From positions 1-38,346 of the forward strand of contig NZ_LXKA01000350.1 of assembly GCF_001645125.1 (NCBI RefSeq): DNA of 38,346 bases, given 5' to 3'. Both the position numbers and the translations under genes were made by a program. Source of the DNA: Paraburkholderia ginsengiterrae (GTDB taxonomy: Bacteria; Pseudomonadota; Gammaproteobacteria; Burkholderiales; Burkholderiaceae). The notes under the pieces were generated by a model. That model saw nothing but the letters and a program-made list of their open reading frames with translations. It was not told the DNA's origin and searched no databases. How positions within the stretch are numbered: position 1 is the stretch's first letter; the number at the start of each line of letters is the position of its first letter. Of this stretch, positions 8,419 to 27,824 are shown in pieces.

Positions 8419-9054
8419 ATGAGTCTGCATACTTGGTGGCTGTTTGTTGCCACGGTCTTTGTCATTTCCGCGATTCCCGGTCCGAACATGCTGCTCGTGA
8501 TGACGCACGGCGCTCAGCACGGGCTGCGCCGCTCCAGTGCGACCATGGCGGGGTGCCTGTCAGCGCTGGTGTTGATGCTGTCGGTCTCGGCGGCCGGGCT
8601 GGGCGTATTTCTCGCGGCCTGGCCGGCCATGTTCGACGCGCTGCGCATGATCGGCGCGGCTTACCTCGTGTATCTCGGCGTCAAGGCCTGGCGCGCTCCG
8701 GCTGATGAAGCTGCCGCCGGTGAGGCCGACGCATTGGCCGCAAAGCCCGCGCGCTCGGCTTTCGCGCTGTTCCGCAACGGTTTTCTGGTGGCGGGCAGCA
8801 ATCCCAAGGCGATCCTGTTCGCCGCCGCGCTGCTGCCGCAATTCATCGACGCCGCACAACCCAAGCTGCCGCAGTTCGGCGTGCTGGTTGCCACTTTCGC
8901 CACGATCGAGGTGAGCTGGTACCTGGTCTACGCGGGCTTCGGCACGCGAATCGGCGCGAAGCTGAAGAGCCGCAGCGTCGCGCGGATGTTCAATCGTCTG
9001 ACTGGAGGCGTGTTTGTCGGCTTCGGCGCGATGATGGCGCTGGTGCGCCACTAG
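8419..9054 (+). CDS. LysE/RhtB-family amino-acid exporter
   Basis: A 211-residue membrane protein with about six hydrophobic segments. The family signature is clear: FVISAIPGPNMLLVMTHGA near residue 15 to 35, a G-x-R segment, then LFRNGFLVAGSNPKAILFF-like (NGFLVAGSNPKAILFAAAL) near residue 125. It would export amino acids or related compounds across the inner membrane. The start at 8419 gives the canonical short N-terminus; the frame stays open to 8359. A CATAAT box at 8380-8385 could be its -10. Substrate unknown. Confidence 0.88.
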   Translation: MSLHTWWLFVATVFVISAIPGPNMLLVMTHGAQHGLRRSSATMAGCLSALVLMLSVSAAGLGVFLAAWPAMFDALRMIGAAYLVYLGVKAWRAPADEAAAGEADALAAKPARSAFALFRNGFLVAGSNPKAILFAAALLPQFIDAAQPKLPQFGVLVATFATIEVSWYLVYAGFGTRIGAKLKSRSVARMFNRLTGGVFVGFGAMMALVRH

Positions 9055-9061
9055 GCGCGGA

Positions 9062-9089
9062 GGCGCAGGGCGCAGGGCGCAGGGCGCAT
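9062..9089 (+). repeat. Short tandem repeat, 4 x 7 bp
   Basis: Three exact copies of GGCGCAG and a fourth ending in T run without interruption just after the LysE-type gene. This is a simple 7-bp tandem repeat with no clear function, possibly variable in copy number between strains. Confidence 0.75.
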
Positions 9090-9169
9090 GGCCCGGCCAA
9101 CCGGCTATGGCGAGACGACTGGTGGTGCGTTGCATTTTTGCAACTCGAGGGTCTACCCTAATTTGCATG

Positions 9170-9198
9170 TTGCGTCGCACCAAACGATTTGCTATAGT
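9170..9198 (+). promoter_or_regulatory. Promoter of the predicted sRNA
   Basis: TATAGT at 9193-9198 (5 of 6 to consensus) lies 17 bases after TTGCGT at 9170-9175. No coding start follows; a strong terminator ends about 68 bases downstream. The predicted transcription start is near 9205. Confidence 0.6.
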
Positions 9199-9204
9199 TC
9201 GTCT

Positions 9205-9266
9205 TGTCTCCTCCATGTCTCCTCTGATATGGATTCAGCCCGCCAACCTAGGCGGGCTTTTTTTTT
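9205..9266 (+). ncRNA. Predicted small RNA with duplicated anti-Shine-Dalgarno motif
   Basis: The segment has a promoter, no ORF, and an intrinsic terminator with nine T's, predicting a transcript of about 62 nt. Its 5' half is single-stranded in appearance and carries TGTCTCCTC twice, at 9205-9213 and 9216-9224, followed by C and T respectively. These are complementary to extended ribosome-binding sites of the type GAGGAGACA. The long U-tail would suit Hfq binding. It lies between a LysE-type gene and the convergent ompW-type gene, separate from both. The transcript is not a recognised Rfam family to me. Its existence is inferred from signals only. Confidence 0.6.
9237..9266 (+). terminator. 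Intrinsic terminator of the predicted sRNA
   Basis: AGCCCGCC (9237-9244), loop AACCTA, GGCGGGCT (9251-9258), with nine T's from 9258. The stem is perfect and GC-rich. It could also end read-through from the LysE-type gene. Confidence 0.92.
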
Positions 9267-9290
9267 GCCCAAATTTCCCGCCCCCATAAA

Positions 9291-9326
9291 CAACAAAACC
9301 GGCCGACCCCTGCACGGGGCCGCCGG
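9291..9326 (-). terminator. Intrinsic terminator of the OmpW-type gene
   Basis: On the minus strand CCGGCGGCCCC, a 5-base loop, GGGGTCGGCCGG and then TTTTGTTG form a slightly imperfect GC-rich stem with a T-rich tail, starting 26 bases after the stop codon at 9352. Confidence 0.75.
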
Positions 9327-9351
9327 CTGCGTGGCTAAACGCCTGCCCGAC

Positions 9352-10176
9352 CTAGAACTTGTACGAGAGGGCCAGGAACGAAATGATCGGATCGGCCGCC
9401 AGGTCTGCCTTGGTGACAGACAGTTCGGTACCGTCCGCAGCCTTGATGATGACCGACGAGGTCGTCTTTAGCGGAATGTACGTGACCGATGCGACCAGTC
9501 CCCAGTGGTCGGTAAAGTTGTACGCCAGACCGGCATTGAACACTGGCGCCCAGGACGAGGATGCTTTCGCCGACACCTGCGTCTGGCCCGGCTTGCCCGC
9601 GCCGGCGGCCAGCACGGCGCCGAGGTTGTTCTGCGTCGACGTGATGAAGTTCTGGCTCAGCTGGAGGTCGGAAAACCAGTTATACGACACGCCAATACCG
9701 ACAAATGGCCGGAACTTCGCGGTCGGCTCATTGAAGTAGTACTGGAACAGCAACGCCGGGCTCCACTGGCGCACGCTCTTCACAATGGGATTGGCTTGCG
9801 GGTCGCCGAGGTTCTGTGTGCCGAGCGCGCCTGCCGGTCCCGGTGGCTTGATGGTGCCGCGCCCTGAGATCTGGAACACCGGCGGTATGCCCGCCACCGT
9901 CGATACGGCAATGTGATCGGTGACGTAATGGCTGAATACCAGACCGGCGGTATCGGCGTTGCTGCTCGACAGGCTCGTGCCGGACGACGTGAACGAACTC
10001 GGCAGGCGCAGCGGCGTGTTGATCGGCACGGGCGCGACGTTGGTGGTGAGCGGCGTGCTCGATTTTGTCGGCGTCACATGGAACCAGCCGAGCACGGCGA
10101 CGTTGTCGCCCGCATGCTGGGCGTGCGCACTGGCGCACAAGCAGGCGCCCAGTATCGCAAGTAAGAACTTTTTCAT
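9352..10176 (-). CDS. OmpW-family outer membrane protein
   Basis: A 274-residue outer membrane beta-barrel. The signal peptide (MKKFLLAILGACLCASAHAQ) is cut at AHA-Q, followed by AGDNVAVLGWFHVTP, a typical OmpW opening. Alternating strands follow, including LFQYYFNEPTAKFRPFVGIG and VFNAGLAYNFTDHWGLVASV. The chain ends in SYKF, the terminal aromatic needed for barrel assembly. OmpW proteins form small hydrophobic-lined channels. The ATG at 10176 is chosen over 10206 because it starts the signal peptide and has AGGGAGAAGCAAC in front. It follows two DUF2957 lipoprotein genes on the same strand. The mature part is longer than the usual 190-200 residue OmpW, with extra loops. Confidence 0.85.
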   Translation of the reverse strand: MKKFLLAILGACLCASAHAQHAGDNVAVLGWFHVTPTKSSTPLTTNVAPVPINTPLRLPSSFTSSGTSLSSSNADTAGLVFSHYVTDHIAVSTVAGIPPVFQISGRGTIKPPGPAGALGTQNLGDPQANPIVKSVRQWSPALLFQYYFNEPTAKFRPFVGIGVSYNWFSDLQLSQNFITSTQNNLGAVLAAGAGKPGQTQVSAKASSSWAPVFNAGLAYNFTDHWGLVASVTYIPLKTTSSVIIKAADGTELSVTKADLAADPIISFLALSYKF

Positions 10177-11682: not shown

Positions 11683-13104
11683 TTATTTGCTGATCTGCGC
11701 TCCAATGCCGAAGTAAGGCGTACTTGGCGTATCCGAATTGGCCGAGGTTGAGGTGATGCCGCCGTTTTCCACACCCTGAATCGCGATGGCGTACAAGCCG
11801 CCCGACGCGATCGCAAGGCCCGTTTTGCCGTTGGTGTCCTGCACGCCGACGAGTCCGGGGCTCGCCAGGCCATAGCCCAGACCGAAGCCGCTTTCCGCCG
11901 CGGACGTGCTCGGATTGATGAATGTGCCGACGGCGCCCTGGATCAGCGTCGCGGTGTACTTGAAGTTCGAATCCGCGCCGACATACCCGCCGTCGAAACC
12001 GCCGGAGGCGAGCGGTGTGGCTGCGGCGAGCATGGCGATGCCGGATTCGTCGTCGACTTTCGCGTCGAGATGCAGCGGGGCGGTGCCGAGATTGATGAAG
12101 CCCGTGCGCACGACCAGCGGGACGGTTGCGCCGTTGATCTGGCCGAGAATCATGTGCGCCGTCCCCGACTTGCCGGTCGCGCCGATGATCGGCAGCTTGA
12201 ACTGCTGCACGATCTGCGGTGCCTGCTGGCTGTCGAAATAGCCGTTGGCGTTTGACGTCCACGGATTGCCGGTGCTCAGGCAGCCGCCGGCGTTCGGCGA
12301 GTAGTTCGGATTGGCAGTGTTGCTGCTGGTGCACGTGCCGCTGGCATCAAACGTTTCAACCGTGTTGGTCGCGACGGTCGCGTAGTTGCCCGACGGCGCC
12401 AGGTGATAGAGCAGGCCGTTATAGGTGCCGGGCAACTTGGTGATGTCGGTCGTCGTGGTGGCGAAACCGAGGAACGGATAGAAGTCGAAATGGCGGCTCG
12501 GCACCGCGCCGATGCCGGAGCCCACGAGCGGAATGGAGAGCCCGTCGAACTCGACGGTCGCGCCTGGAATGCCGCCGCCCGCCACGCCGAGACCCACGAG
12601 GATCATGGGCGGATTGGGGTTGTTGACGAAATCGGGCGTCGTGTACGGCTGGCCGTCGCCGGCCGCGGTACCGGTGCCGGCGCCGAGGATGAAGGCGCAG
12701 CGCGTCTGTTCGGCGGTCGGCAGCGCACCGGTCGGCGGGTGGATTACCGCGCCCGTGATCTGCGTACCTGCACGGGTCGGCGTGACCTGTCCCGTGCGCA
12801 ACGGAATCGGCGACTCGAGCCACTTGAGGGTGTACTTCATCGCCGTCGCGTCGATGTTCAACTGCACCACTTCGCCGCTACCCGCGCCACCCAGGAAGGT
12901 GGTCTTGACGATATCGGCGGTCGCGGGACAGAGCGCCGCCGTGCTCGGAGCGGAGGGCGGCGGACCTTGCACGCCACAACTCGCGCCTGAGCATTGCGGA
13001 GGGTTGACCGGGCCTGGATTGTCGGCCTTGCCGCCACCGCAAGCGATCAGGAATGGGGCCGTGGCAAGGGCCATCGCCAGGCCTCGAGTAATGGCTTGCG
13101 ACAT
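11683..13104 (-). CDS. DUF2957 family lipoprotein (copy B)
   Basis: A 473-residue predicted lipoprotein. The signal peptide ends in FLIAC, with the lipidated cysteine at about residue 22, followed by a glycine/proline-rich linker containing two more cysteines. The body matches copy A in landmark order (LCPA, ESPIP, VTPTRAG, GVAGGGIPGA, YPFLGF, YNGLLYHLAPSGNY, DDESGI), so the pair arose by duplication and then diverged widely. The ATG at 13104 is preferred over 13122: GGGAGAC stands 5 bases before it, whereas nothing precedes the longer start. It is the first gene of the presumed operon. Function unknown. Confidence 0.8.
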   Translation of the reverse strand: MSQAITRGLAMALATAPFLIACGGGKADNPGPVNPPQCSGASCGVQGPPPSAPSTAALCPATADIVKTTFLGGAGSGEVVQLNIDATAMKYTLKWLESPIPLRTGQVTPTRAGTQITGAVIHPPTGALPTAEQTRCAFILGAGTGTAAGDGQPYTTPDFVNNPNPPMILVGLGVAGGGIPGATVEFDGLSIPLVGSGIGAVPSRHFDFYPFLGFATTTTDITKLPGTYNGLLYHLAPSGNYATVATNTVETFDASGTCTSSNTANPNYSPNAGGCLSTGNPWTSNANGYFDSQQAPQIVQQFKLPIIGATGKSGTAHMILGQINGATVPLVVRTGFINLGTAPLHLDAKVDDESGIAMLAAATPLASGGFDGGYVGADSNFKYTATLIQGAVGTFINPSTSAAESGFGLGYGLASPGLVGVQDTNGKTGLAIASGGLYAIAIQGVENGGITSTSANSDTPSTPYFGIGAQISK

Positions 13105-13526
13105 GCTGCTGTCTCCCTTCATGTAATTGTGCGAACTAATTTCGCCGCGCTATTAATGCCTGTCAATTGAATGAGCCGTCTAAAAAGATCGATTCAAACA
13201 GCGCATTGGCGGCCGGCTGCGCGCCGTGTGGACGTCGGCCGCCCTTTTAAACAAAAAAGAGAATTTCGCGCGAGGAGCGGCACCGTTGCTTCGCCGCACA
13301 CCCTTGCCAGGTAAGCGTTACAGCAAAATGGCTCTATCATCTGCGAACGATCGTTCGACAAAAAGTCCGGAGTTTCCCTATGCGGAAAACTATGCTGAGC
13401 GGGTTGCTGACAGGGATGAATTACCGGGAATTTGCTGAGCAGTCCGATTTTTATTTTTTAAGTAATGCGGGCTAATACTGATTAACTGTGAGGTGGGGAG
13501 TTTGAAAAGGCGGATTTTTAAAACAG
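13105..13526. other. Upstream region of the DUF2957 operon, no gene seen
   Basis: This 422-base gap lies between the DUF2957 start and the argC terminator. It contains a GC-rich inverted repeat, GGCGGCCG (13208-13215) with CGGCCGCC (13236-13243), followed by CTTTT on the plus strand, and a perfect palindrome at 13344-13357. A run of AT-rich sequence lies at 13440-13530. Short open frames here look like chance. Confidence 0.4.
13333..13361 (-). promoter_or_regulatory. Palindromic operator inside a candidate promoter of the DUF2957 operon
   Basis: CGAACGATCGTTCG (13344-13357) is a perfect 14-bp palindrome of the kind bound by TetR-family dimers. On the minus strand it sits between a possible -35, TTGTCG (13361-13356), and a weak -10, GATAGA (13338-13333), 17 bases apart. 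The leader would be about 230 bases. The palindrome is certain, the promoter is weak. Confidence 0.45.
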
Positions 13527-25200: not shown

Positions 25201-25883
25201 ATATCGACCGAAGCCGATGACTCGACGACATCGGTCACGCACTTCATGGCCACCCACAGCCCGGAGTAGCGGCTCATCGCCCAGCCGTGCAGACCGAAGT
25301 CGAGATATTCCTGCACGTTGGAGGGGAACAGCACCGGCAGGCCGCATGCCTTGAAAATGTGTTCGGATTGGTGCGCTAGCGTGGACGACTTGGCTGCGTG
25401 ATCGTCGCCGGCGAGTACCAGAACGCCGCCGTGGCTCGCCGAGCCGGCCGAGTTGCCATGCTTGAAGACGTCGCCGGTGCGGTCGACGCCCGGGCCTTTG
25501 CCGTACCACATCGAGAACACGCCATCGTATTTGGCGCTCGGGTACAGATTGACCTGTTGCGAACCCCAGACGGCGGTCGCCGCGAGGTCTTCGTTGACGC
25601 CTGGCTGGAACACGACCCGATGCGCGGCGAGATGCTGTTTCGCCTTCCACAAGGATTGATCGAGTCCGCCGAGGGGCGATCCACGGTAGCCGGAGATGAA
25701 GCCGGCAGTATTGAGCCCGGCGGCCTGGTCGCGTTCCTGCTGCAGCATCGGCAGACGCACCAGCGCCTGGATGCCACTCATGTACGCGCGGCCGCGTTCA
25801 AGGGTGTATTTATCGTCGAGCGTGACGGAAGACAACGCGGCTTCAAGCGAGGCTCGCTGACCTGCGTCTAGCGGGGCATTCAT
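22284..25883 (-). CDS. Fused indolepyruvate:ferredoxin oxidoreductase (IorAB-type)
   Basis: A 1199-residue fusion of the subunits of a 2-oxoacid:ferredoxin oxidoreductase. The N-terminal part (about 30-420) is the TPP pyrimidine-binding region (GFISGYRGSPLGGLDQ). About 440-660 holds the TPP site, with GCPHN and NLGDGTYFHSG. An iron-sulfur stretch follows near 670-740 (CEGCGDCSVKSNC, then CNKDFSCVNGFC). About 765-930 is the gamma part (VLVTGVGGTGVVTIGALLG), and a C-terminal domain of roughly 250 residues completes it. It would convert indolepyruvate or other aryl-pyruvates to arylacetyl-CoA, reducing ferredoxin. The start at 25883 has GGAGGAG nine bases ahead. Aryl-pyruvate and phenylacetate genes nearby agree with the role; substrate remains inferred. 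Confidence 0.85.
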   Translation of the reverse strand: MNAPLDAGQRASLEAALSSVTLDDKYTLERGRAYMSGIQALVRLPMLQQERDQAAGLNTAGFISGYRGSPLGGLDQSLWKAKQHLAAHRVVFQPGVNEDLAATAVWGSQQVNLYPSAKYDGVFSMWYGKGPGVDRTGDVFKHGNSAGSASHGGVLVLAGDDHAAKSSTLAHQSEHIFKACGLPVLFPSNVQEYLDFGLHGWAMSRYSGLWVAMKCVTDVVESSASVDIDPHRTKIILPDDFNMPDGGLNIRWPDPPLVQEARLLDYKWYAALAYVRANKLDRVEIDSPHARFGIMTGGKAYLDVRQALTDLGLDDETCSRIGIRLYKVGCVWPLEAQGAHAFARGLDEILVVEEKRQILEYAIKEELYNWPDAQRPRVFGKFDEKDGAGGEWSVPMGNWLLPAHYELSPAIIAKAIATRLDKFDLPSDVRARIATRIAVIEAKEKALARPRVEAERKPWFCSGCPHNTSTNVPEGSRAMAGIGCHYMTVWMDRSTSTFSQMGGEGVAWIGQAPFTNDKHVFANLGDGTYFHSGLLAIRAAIASKANITYKLLYNDAVAMTGGQPVDGVLTVPQITHQLAAEGATKIVIVTDEPEKYSANVGLAPGIDIHHREKLDEVQRQLREVTGTTILIYDQTCATEKRRRRKRGTYPDPARRVVINDAVCEGCGDCSVKSNCLSVEPVDTEYGTKRQINQSSCNKDFSCVNGFCPSFVSVEGGQLRKPKAASGVGGDAMPPVPDPELPSIERPYGVLVTGVGGTGVVTIGALLGMAGHLESKGVTVLDVTGLAQKGGAVMSHVQIAKSPADIHATRIAMGEASLVIGCDAIVTASDECVSRMQAGRTRVVLNSAHTPTAELIKNPNWRFPGSSTEADVRAAAGDDGVDTVDANHFAVALLGDAIYTNPFVLGYAWQRGWIPLTYQSLIRAIELNNVQVEKNRAAFEWGRRAAHDLAAVRKLVQSQGRGATAEAASSKIISLHTPKALDTLIDKRADYLAAWQNSAYADRYRALVSQVRVAESSLDSIDGQLPLTEAVAKNLHKLMAYKDEYEVARLYSDPAFIEKLKANFEGDWKLHIHLAPPTFSKKDAQGHLVKKKYGPWVFSAMHVLAKFKFLRGTAFDVFGKTEERRTERALIVEYEALVRELIGGLTAGKRELAIELANLPDGIRGYGHVKENNLKGVRVKWNELLTRWRSTDAGKAQHAA

Positions 25884-26237
25884 TGTGTGTACTCCTCCAC
25901 CCAGTTTGGGATCGCCAAAACTTTTTAGGCCGCGGCATCTTGTGAATGCGTAGGGCCGGGCCGCCATATTGACGTGTTTTAAGTGATGGTAGCACTGGTG
26001 AAAACCCGCCGCAGCGCGTCGGAAATGCGGCGCTGCAGCGAGACGGGACTATGGGGCGCGCTGCCCTGAAGTTTTCGACCCTACTTCGAAGGTCGCCTGT
26101 AACAAGCTGTAAAAACTACAAATTCGCGGAACCGTAGTTGAAATGTCTGTCTAACCCCCACCTGCGAGCAATGTCTGCGCAATGCTCCGCATTCTGCGGA
26201 GCTTCACGACAGCAGGGCAGTTAGAAAAGGAGTACGC
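25884..26237. other. Divergent intergenic region with leader hairpin
   Basis: This gap separates the oxidoreductase from a small secreted protein gene. GCTCCGCA (26184-26191), TTC, TGCGGAGC (26195-26202) is a perfect 8-bp hairpin 36 bases before the small gene. AACTAC (26114-26119) and GTAGTT (26134-26139) form a wider inverted repeat. No gene is evident in the gap and no promoter is convincing. Confidence 0.45.
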
Positions 26238-26583: not shown

Positions 26584-27681
26584 TCAGGCTTTGTCCTGCA
26601 CCACGCCGCGGCGGATCTGATCCAGTTCGATGGATTCGAAGAGCGCCTTGAAGTTGCCCTCGCCGAAGCCCTGGTTGCCCTTGCGCTGAATGATCTCGAA
26701 GAAGATCGGCCCGATCTGGTTCTCAGTGAAAATCTGCAACAGCAAATCCTCACGCGCACCGTCGATCAGAATCTTGCGCTTACGCAGTTCGTCGAGCGGC
26801 TCGCCATGGTTCGGCACGCGGCGATCGACCAGTTCGTAATACGTGTCGATAGTATCGAGCAGTGAAATGTTGGCGCCGCGCAAGCCATCCACGGTGCGGT
26901 AGATGTCGTTGCTGCCGAGGGCAATGTGCTGAATGCCTTCGCCGTGATACGCGTCGAGATATTCCTGAATCTGGCCGGCGGTTTCCGATCCTTCTTCGTT
27001 GATCGGGATGCGGATCTTGCCGCACGGCGAGGTCATCGCCTTCGACTTCACGCCCGTCACCTTGCCTTCAATGTCGAAGTAGCGCACTTCGCGGAAATTG
27101 AACAGGCGCTCGTAGAACTCCGCCCATTCCTGCATGCGGCCGCGATGCACGTTGTGCGTCAGATGGTCGATGTACGTCAGGCCGTGGCCGACCGGATTGG
27201 GATTCGCACCCGGAATCGGTTCGAAGTCGACGTCGTAAATGTCGATGTTGCCAATGCTGTTCGGCTCGGCGCCGTTCTTGCCGCGCCAGCGGTCGACGAA
27301 ATAGATCAGCGAATCGCCAATACCTTTGATGGCCGGAATGTTCAGTTCCATCGGGCCGGTCTTATTGTCGAAACCCCAGGCGCCTTTTTCCAACGCCAAC
27401 TTGTAGGCCTTCGCCGCGTCCTGAACACGGAAAGCGATGGCGCAGATCGACGGGCCGTGCAGACGCGTGAAGCGCTGCGCGAACGAATCCTGTTCGCCAT
27501 TGACGATGAAGTTGATTTCCCCCTGGCGATACAGCGTCACGTCTTTGTGACGATGCCGGGCGACGGCCGTGAAGCCCATCTGTTCGAACAGCTTGCCGAG
27601 CGCTTTCGGGTCGGGTGCCGTGTACTCGATGAACTCGAAGCCGTCCGTGCCGACCGGATTTTCCCATGTTGGAACCTGCAT
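26584..27681 (-). CDS. hpd: 4-hydroxyphenylpyruvate dioxygenase
   Basis: A 365-residue Fe(II) enzyme of tyrosine breakdown. It converts 4-hydroxyphenylpyruvate to homogentisate with O2. The expected iron ligands are visible: His in YIDHLTHNV, His in GIQHIALGSNDI, and Glu in FFEIIQRKGNQGFGEGNFKA. The C-terminal segment GNFKALFESIE is a family signature. The start at 27681 gives MQVPTWENPVGTDGFEFIEY, preceded by AGGAGACA five bases before. Divergent from the Lrp/AsnC-type gene, with 143 bases between the starts, so that regulator is a likely control. The frame upstream to 27741 has no family match. Confidence 0.94.
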   Translation of the reverse strand: MQVPTWENPVGTDGFEFIEYTAPDPKALGKLFEQMGFTAVARHRHKDVTLYRQGEINFIVNGEQDSFAQRFTRLHGPSICAIAFRVQDAAKAYKLALEKGAWGFDNKTGPMELNIPAIKGIGDSLIYFVDRWRGKNGAEPNSIGNIDIYDVDFEPIPGANPNPVGHGLTYIDHLTHNVHRGRMQEWAEFYERLFNFREVRYFDIEGKVTGVKSKAMTSPCGKIRIPINEEGSETAGQIQEYLDAYHGEGIQHIALGSNDIYRTVDGLRGANISLLDTIDTYYELVDRRVPNHGEPLDELRKRKILIDGAREDLLLQIFTENQIGPIFFEIIQRKGNQGFGEGNFKALFESIELDQIRRGVVQDKA

Positions 27682-27824
27682 GCCTGTCTCCTGAGGTGTG
27701 CAATTGAACACGACTGAATGACGCAAGTGTATAGGCGTCATGGCGGTGGAAACTTGCGAACTTAATCGTGCATCACTACGATGGCGCTATTTTCTAGCGC
27801 AACTTTTCTCATGGACGGCAGGTA

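Follow-up and report, generated by a model that had tools for sequence, protein, structure and literature searches.

Four small RNAs (sRNAs) of the Rfam family RF02278 have been reported from Burkholderia cenocepacia J2315; they are toxic in E. coli when carried on a vector, and their expression was seen in northern blots from earlier work (PMC4603805). In the same strain, ncS03, ncS05, ncS27 and ncS62 were named "double-hairpin RNAs." Their CU-rich regions are reverse complements of ribosome-binding sites, and 55–80% of their predicted interactions are near gene starts (PMC5688073). The start of ncS03 was mapped by dRNA-seq and its length is given as 58–59 nt; by qPCR, it is up 2.9-fold in biofilms and 8-fold in glucose medium (PMC4603805, PMC5688073). 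The duplex drawn for ncS03 with one target uses both CU-rich regions (PMC5688073). ncS27 is reported to repress several genes via CU-rich stretches that act on ribosome-binding sites; planktonic growth was slower when it was overexpressed and faster when it was silenced, while biofilms were unaffected (PMC5688073).

In Bordetella pertussis, the related S17 is Hfq-dependent and co-precipitates with Hfq. Its loss raised the expression of 92 genes, 70 of which carry matches, and for one target, mutating site 1 abolished repression and a compensatory mutation restored it (PMC11722255). S17S hardly impairs the growth of E. coli (PMC11722255), so toxicity is not a constant feature of RF02278. Herbaspirillum has four members of the family, which was termed exclusive to betaproteobacteria (PMC7011215).

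The literature on anti-Shine-Dalgarno (anti-SD) sRNAs in general yielded the AbcR sRNAs of rhizobia. Another group, the CcsR-type sRNAs of alphaproteobacteria, have CU-rich loops that could pair with ribosome-binding sites, and a DUF1127 (CcaF1-like) gene lies on the same transcript.

Family membership, structure and synteny

We analyzed a stretch of 38,346 nucleotides from Paraburkholderia ginsengiterrae (the window). A segment of its forward strand matches RF02278 (Betaproteobacteria_toxic_sRNA) over the full model (positions 1–64) with a score of 74.5 bits, against a gathering cut-off of 50 (E = 2e-13), and the first base of the match is 9205 (Table 1). RF02278 is the only Rfam family above its gathering cut-off anywhere in the window; anti-hemB (RF02837) and BjrC1505 (RF02356) match here weakly, at 28.7 and 24 bits, which is under their cut-offs of 49.5 and 50. 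This is a genuine sRNA gene, and an ordinary, well-conserved member of a family that was previously described in Burkholderia. We are confident in the full reading, that it encodes a double-hairpin sRNA of RF02278, orthologous to ncS03, which represses several mRNAs at ribosome-binding sites that contain GGAG.

Table 1. Positions in the window of the sRNA gene, its parts, and possible target sites.
Feature	Position	Strand	Evidence
sRNA gene, RF02278	9205-9265	+	Rfam covariance match, synteny, length
Putative promoter region, TTGCGT-17-TATAGT, first hexamer within the conserved motif TTGCGnCGCA	9170-9198	+	Sequence, conservation
Site 1, TGTCTCCTC, 5' single-stranded anti-SD seed	9205-9213	+	Predicted fold, Rfam, conservation
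Hairpin 1, UCCAUGUC / GAUAUGGA, loop UCCUCU	9212-9233	+	Predicted fold, Rfam, covariation
Site 2, second copy of TGTCTCCTC, split between the stem (UGUC) and the loop (UCCUC) of hairpin 1	9216-9224	+	Fold, pattern search
Hairpin 2 and U tail, intrinsic terminator whose 3' end presumably binds Hfq	9237-9265	+	Terminator scan, fold, covariation
Possible target site, GGAGACA (27685-27691) and start codon of hpd (hydroxyphenylpyruvate dioxygenase)	27679-27691	-	
Possible target site, GGAGACA (13110-13116) and start codon of DUF2957 copy B	13102-13116	-	
Possible target site, GGAGGAG (25892-25898) and start codon of ferredoxin oxidoreductase gene	25881-25898	-	

The first-pass annotation, which was made from the sequence of the window, had predicted an sRNA with a duplicated anti-SD motif in its unpaired 5' half, followed by a strong terminator with nine T's. 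The motif TGTCTCCTC does occur twice, 11 bases apart, and nowhere else on either strand of the window; its complement GAGGAGACA was found at these two places only. But just the first copy is predicted to be open (apart from its last two bases). In the second copy, UGUC is base-paired within hairpin 1 and UCCUC falls in its loop. The terminator is as described: a terminator scan places its stem at 9237-9258, ahead of the U tail, and the first of the nine T's is paired within the stem. The folding z-score of 9200-9266 is -6.47.

The double-hairpin RNAs of B. cenocepacia (ncS03, ncS05, ncS27 and ncS62) resemble the window's copy in sequence, in their two hairpins, in both CU-rich stretches, and in the terminator. 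They are from another species, and we found no further difference. S17 also shares site 1, the loop site and the terminator. S17S is an RNase E product of a 190-nt transcript, whereas the window's copy seems to start at the seed itself. By analogy with S17, we infer that the window's copy binds Hfq. The first-pass annotation also likened the sRNA to the CcsR type. The logic is similar, but they do not appear to be related: instead of a DUF1127 companion, the flanking genes are from the LysE and OmpW families (according to Pfam).

RF02278 matches were found in all 59 genomes searched from the genus (3–9 apiece), in 188 of 300 from the order (at E of 0.001; 114 are above the cut-off), in 83 of 274 from the class (the three above the cut-off are all Burkholderiales and include the window's own genome), and in 27 of 299 from the phylum (the four matches outside of the class score at most 32.5 bits). 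Because these searches ran with stricter filters, they miss some weak matches; in none of them did the 14 control genomes give a match. Of the four matches in the window's own genome, one is below the cut-off. This fourth, divergent copy (L004:121-188, minus strand; 41.3 bits) has a longer hairpin 1 and starts with CGTCTCC. We also noticed tandem arrays of RF02278-like RNAs in several genomes, with two or three copies and about 150–380 bases between them (G617:C3:217943, 218092, 218243; G065:C1:1646160, 1646538; and G267:C10:271947, 272162).

Both hairpins covary. We aligned 85 matches: 4 from the window's own genome, 60 from the order, and 21 from 20 class-level loci (the model was built from 25). 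In this alignment, which was fitted to the structure beforehand, 96.3% of the cells are standard pairs, and 12 of the 14 pairs have changes on both sides. None of 500 shuffles equaled this pairing, and slid versions reached at most 55.1%. The 60 order-level members were drawn from matches above the cut-off. All 60 retain site 1 (GTCTCC), and 56 retain the anti-SD stretch of the loop (site 2), which is absent from L212, L216, L218 and L219. Loss of the loop site therefore does occur, whereas no order-level member that we read lacks site 1.

When named genomes were scanned for an exact pattern, at least 120 loci were found, 70 with the window's 38-nt core and 50 with a 39-nt core, and the neighborhoods of the two cores differ. 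Among the matches listed with the 38-nt core, ompW is convergent within 1.2 kb at 39 of the 56 loci with sufficient downstream sequence, and a 3-hydroxyisobutyrate-dehydrogenase-like or LysE-type gene is upstream at 26 of the 28 loci with sufficient sequence. Among those listed with the 39-nt core, an ada-type gene is upstream at 47 of 50. Pfam confirmed the names of the neighboring genes (the LysE and OmpW families flank the sRNA in the window), and the neighboring proteins have close matches in Paraburkholderia and Burkholderia records. In B. cenocepacia NCTC13227, the sRNA is followed by OmpW, DUF2957 A and DUF2957 B. In J2315, ncS03 lies between BCAL0197 and BCAL0198, with the orientation -> -> <- (PMC4603805); BCAL0198 encodes OmpW, and the next two genes, BCAL0199-0200, encode DUF2957 proteins (PMC10303873). 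According to Pfam, OmpW and two DUF2957 genes have the same order in the window as at BCAL0198-0200. Because the gene order is shared with BCAL0198-0200, and given the similar length, we infer that the window's copy is the orthologue of ncS03.

Candidate targets in the window

The first-pass annotation named three ribosome-binding sites in the window as possible targets, and all three are where it put them: GGAGACA is just ahead of the start codons of hpd and of DUF2957 copy B (DUF2957-B), and GGAGGAG is ahead of the start codon of the ferredoxin oxidoreductase gene (Table 1). Site 1 is predicted to form 8 pairs with hpd (-12.9 kcal/mol), 8 pairs with DUF2957-B (-13.0 kcal/mol), and 11 pairs, including a bulge, with the ferredoxin oxidoreductase gene (-16.2 kcal/mol). 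A comparison to shuffled controls favored the short stretches but not the full lengths. For these short site 1 duplexes, 8, 7 and 0 of 500 shuffles were as good (for hpd, DUF2957-B and the oxidoreductase, respectively), and for short duplexes with the loop, 13, 10 and 6 were. Over the whole length, the energies were no better than those of shuffles (121, 287 and 325 of 500 were as good).

Within the genus, GGAGACA is present at 35 of 39 hpd loci from a search of 40 genomes: at all of the 30 closest (29 relatives and the window) and at 5 of nine more close orthologues. The other four have GGAGAGA, GGAGACG, GGAGATA or GGAGACT. For DUF2957-B, all 17 distinct sequences, from 26 loci, have GGAGACA; this set leaves out loci that were under 60% identity or unaligned at the start. 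The ferredoxin oxidoreductase gene has GGAGGAG in 17 of 20 relatives and GGAGGAA in the other three. We also compared genes across 20 relatives that share the gene order of the window. The two genes with GGAGACA keep this heptamer in 22 of 22 distinct sequences, versus 35 of 83 for the seven other window genes with GGAG sites (8/8, 8/12, 7/13, 6/14, 4/18, 1/9 and 1/9). In this comparison, starts were placed for 23 of 31 conserved genes, 9 of them with GGAG, and some of the starts may be wrong; the 8 genes for which no start aligned in 8 genomes were dropped. The ferredoxin oxidoreductase gene was given another start, so it was examined separately, as above.

We also considered that hpd and DUF2957-B might be coincidental matches to a common ribosome-binding site, with the true targets elsewhere, and we give this explanation slightly less than an even chance. 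GGAGACA has 224 start-proximal matches in the genome, versus 15 for the reversed pattern, so many matches are expected without any regulation. Nor are GGAGACA sites clearly better conserved in general: when 400 kb of another contig was compared to three relatives, counting only pairs that retain GGAG, GGAGACA was kept in 9 of 13 pairs (5 genes) and other heptamers in 68 of 119 pairs (75 other genes), so we dropped this idea. And besides the four exceptions within the genus, 25 of 29 hpd loci from elsewhere in the order lack GGAGACA within 90 bases upstream (of the four that have it, one is from the same family). Against coincidence, the heptamer is kept better at hpd and DUF2957-B than at the seven other window genes. 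Furthermore, hpd belongs to phenylalanine and tyrosine catabolism, and genes of this pathway are reported to be affected by the paralogue ncS27 (in a review, PMC10987360). We therefore regard hpd and DUF2957-B as fair candidates for direct targets, with partial comparative support. The excerpts of the literature on RF02278 RNAs that we drew on contain no demonstration of direct targeting of either gene. In the relatives compared, the sRNA and hpd are about 12–18 kb apart on a single contig (9205-27691 in the window).

The seed extension and relatives outside of Burkholderiales

In the class sample of 274 genomes, sub-threshold relatives of RF02278 (40–49 bits) turned up in 23, all from outside of Burkholderiales. 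We read 20 class-level loci, of which 19 belong to this set of 23 and the last scores 39.4 bits. No Rfam family scores above its own cut-off at any of the 20 loci and RF02278 is the best in each, but the loci were chosen by the RF02278 model, so some likeness is expected. In all 21 matches from these loci, the 5' end has CTCC and the loop has an anti-SD stretch; 18 of them have at least 6 T's at the end. None has the GTCTCC extension; instead of UGUC, the seed extension is CGAC, UGAC or others. In the phylum sample, the five matching class members from outside of the order score only 30.9–36.3 bits, which counts against a wide spread. On balance, we lean towards the view that RF02278 is not confined to Betaproteobacteria, and that the anti-SD core is old and fixed while the adjacent bases are tuned in each lineage to its targets (such as hpd in the Burkholderiaceae).

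If the extension simply tracked each genome's preferred ribosome-binding site, then the seed should predict the ratio of start-proximal GGAGACA to GGAGTCG. This ratio is 224:119, 214:110 and 213:116 in three genomes of the window's genus. Five genomes with CGAC seeds favor GGAGTCG (10:42, 19:38, 9:26, 20:52 and 8:29). The ratios are 33:59 and 38:54 with UGAC, 15:11 with AGAC, 37:109 with GGAC, and 15:10 with AUAC. But among 21 genomes of Burkholderiales with GUCUCC seeds, 13 favor GGAGACA (such as 257:82) and 8 favor GGAGTCG (such as 23:46 and 30:53; these are raw counts, with the control not subtracted). So there is no such rule.

These counts also bear on another explanation, that the RNA is a general brake on growth, an anti-SD mimic that acts on the ribosome or on global translation rather than on particular mRNAs. 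The seed does fit GGAGACA, which exceeds expectation before ATG by more than any other GGAGnnn heptamer (11 seen versus 3.2 expected in a 438-kb sample). Also, members of the family are toxic in E. coli when on a vector, and overexpression of ncS27 slows growth (PMC4603805, PMC5688073). However, site 1 is constant while the commoner heptamer varies among Burkholderiales (13 versus 8 of the 21 genomes). A general brake also seems inconsistent with S17, where most of the genes that rise upon its loss carry matches and one target requires a specific site (PMC11722255). We consider a general brake to be unlikely.

The promoter and the proposed mechanism

The first-pass annotation placed a promoter with 17-base spacing ahead of the sRNA. 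The hexamers and the spacing are there (TTGCGT at 9170-9175 and TATAGT at 9193-9198, with 9205 as the probable start). But TTGCGT agrees with TTGACA at only 3 of 6 positions (by eye), and a consensus promoter scan of 8600-10000 did not report any promoter. The putative promoter is called from its conservation between species. Among the matches listed, 70 loci have the window's type of core; 61 of these have TATA at about -16 to -6, 51 have TTGCG at -40 to -25, and 37 have the complete TTGCGnCGCA. For 49 listed loci with the other core, the corresponding numbers are 34, 42 and 40. A profile of 69 loci with the window's type of core has 1.71 bits of information per position within the RNA, 1.18 over the preceding 40 bases, 0.54 between -75 and -40, and 0.12–0.17 beyond; since the first 38 bases of the RNA were fixed by the search pattern, only the promoter and the terminator are informative in this profile. 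A common upstream motif was also reported for three double-hairpin homologues of B. cenocepacia (PMC5688073).

In three of the genome's own four copies (the window's at 9170-9179, L001 and L003), TTGCGnCGCA overlaps the -35 element, as an operator might. We considered this motif as the signal of a regulon, but TTGCGNCGCANCAA matches the genome at 6 places versus 4 for the reversed control, and sRNAs account for 2 of these 6; the whole-genome pattern search gave no sign of a regulon. A stretch like ATATTAGAnAATnCT is common upstream of many members, from both Burkholderiales and the class-level relatives (L170, L188, L195, L203, L211, L221, L224, L226, L235 and L239). Perhaps it is a common promoter for a longer precursor that carries an extra 5' hairpin.

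The locus could also be read as a mere terminator for the LysE-type gene, which lies upstream in the same orientation, with CU repeats that have no role; its hairpin does make a good terminator. We consider this very improbable, because in other species the LysE-type gene is about 0.3 to over 5 kb away while the promoter motif and the sRNA stay, all 60 members retain the seed despite terminators of differing sequence, and ncS03 has a mapped start of its own (PMC4603805).

We propose instead that the sRNA is transcribed from its own promoter and that transcription ends at the intrinsic terminator, whose long U tail is probably held by Hfq. The open 5' seed, UGUCUCCUCCA, would pair with ribosome-binding sites that contain GGAG, and the CU-rich loop of hairpin 1 would be a second pairing site. 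Pairing would repress a number of mRNAs for metabolism and transport. Relatives have been reported to be transcribed, to affect growth, and to repress via site 1, and the window's copy may do likewise. The first-pass annotation's reading of the sRNA as a translational repressor with several targets is supported by the reported behavior of ncS27 (PMC5688073) and S17 (PMC11722255).

Much of this was already described for the family, so the novelty is low. A reader with the sequence alone found a true regulatory RNA along with plausible targets. What is new is limited to two points: hpd and DUF2957-B are added as candidate targets, and a family that was described as betaproteobacterial may be wider.
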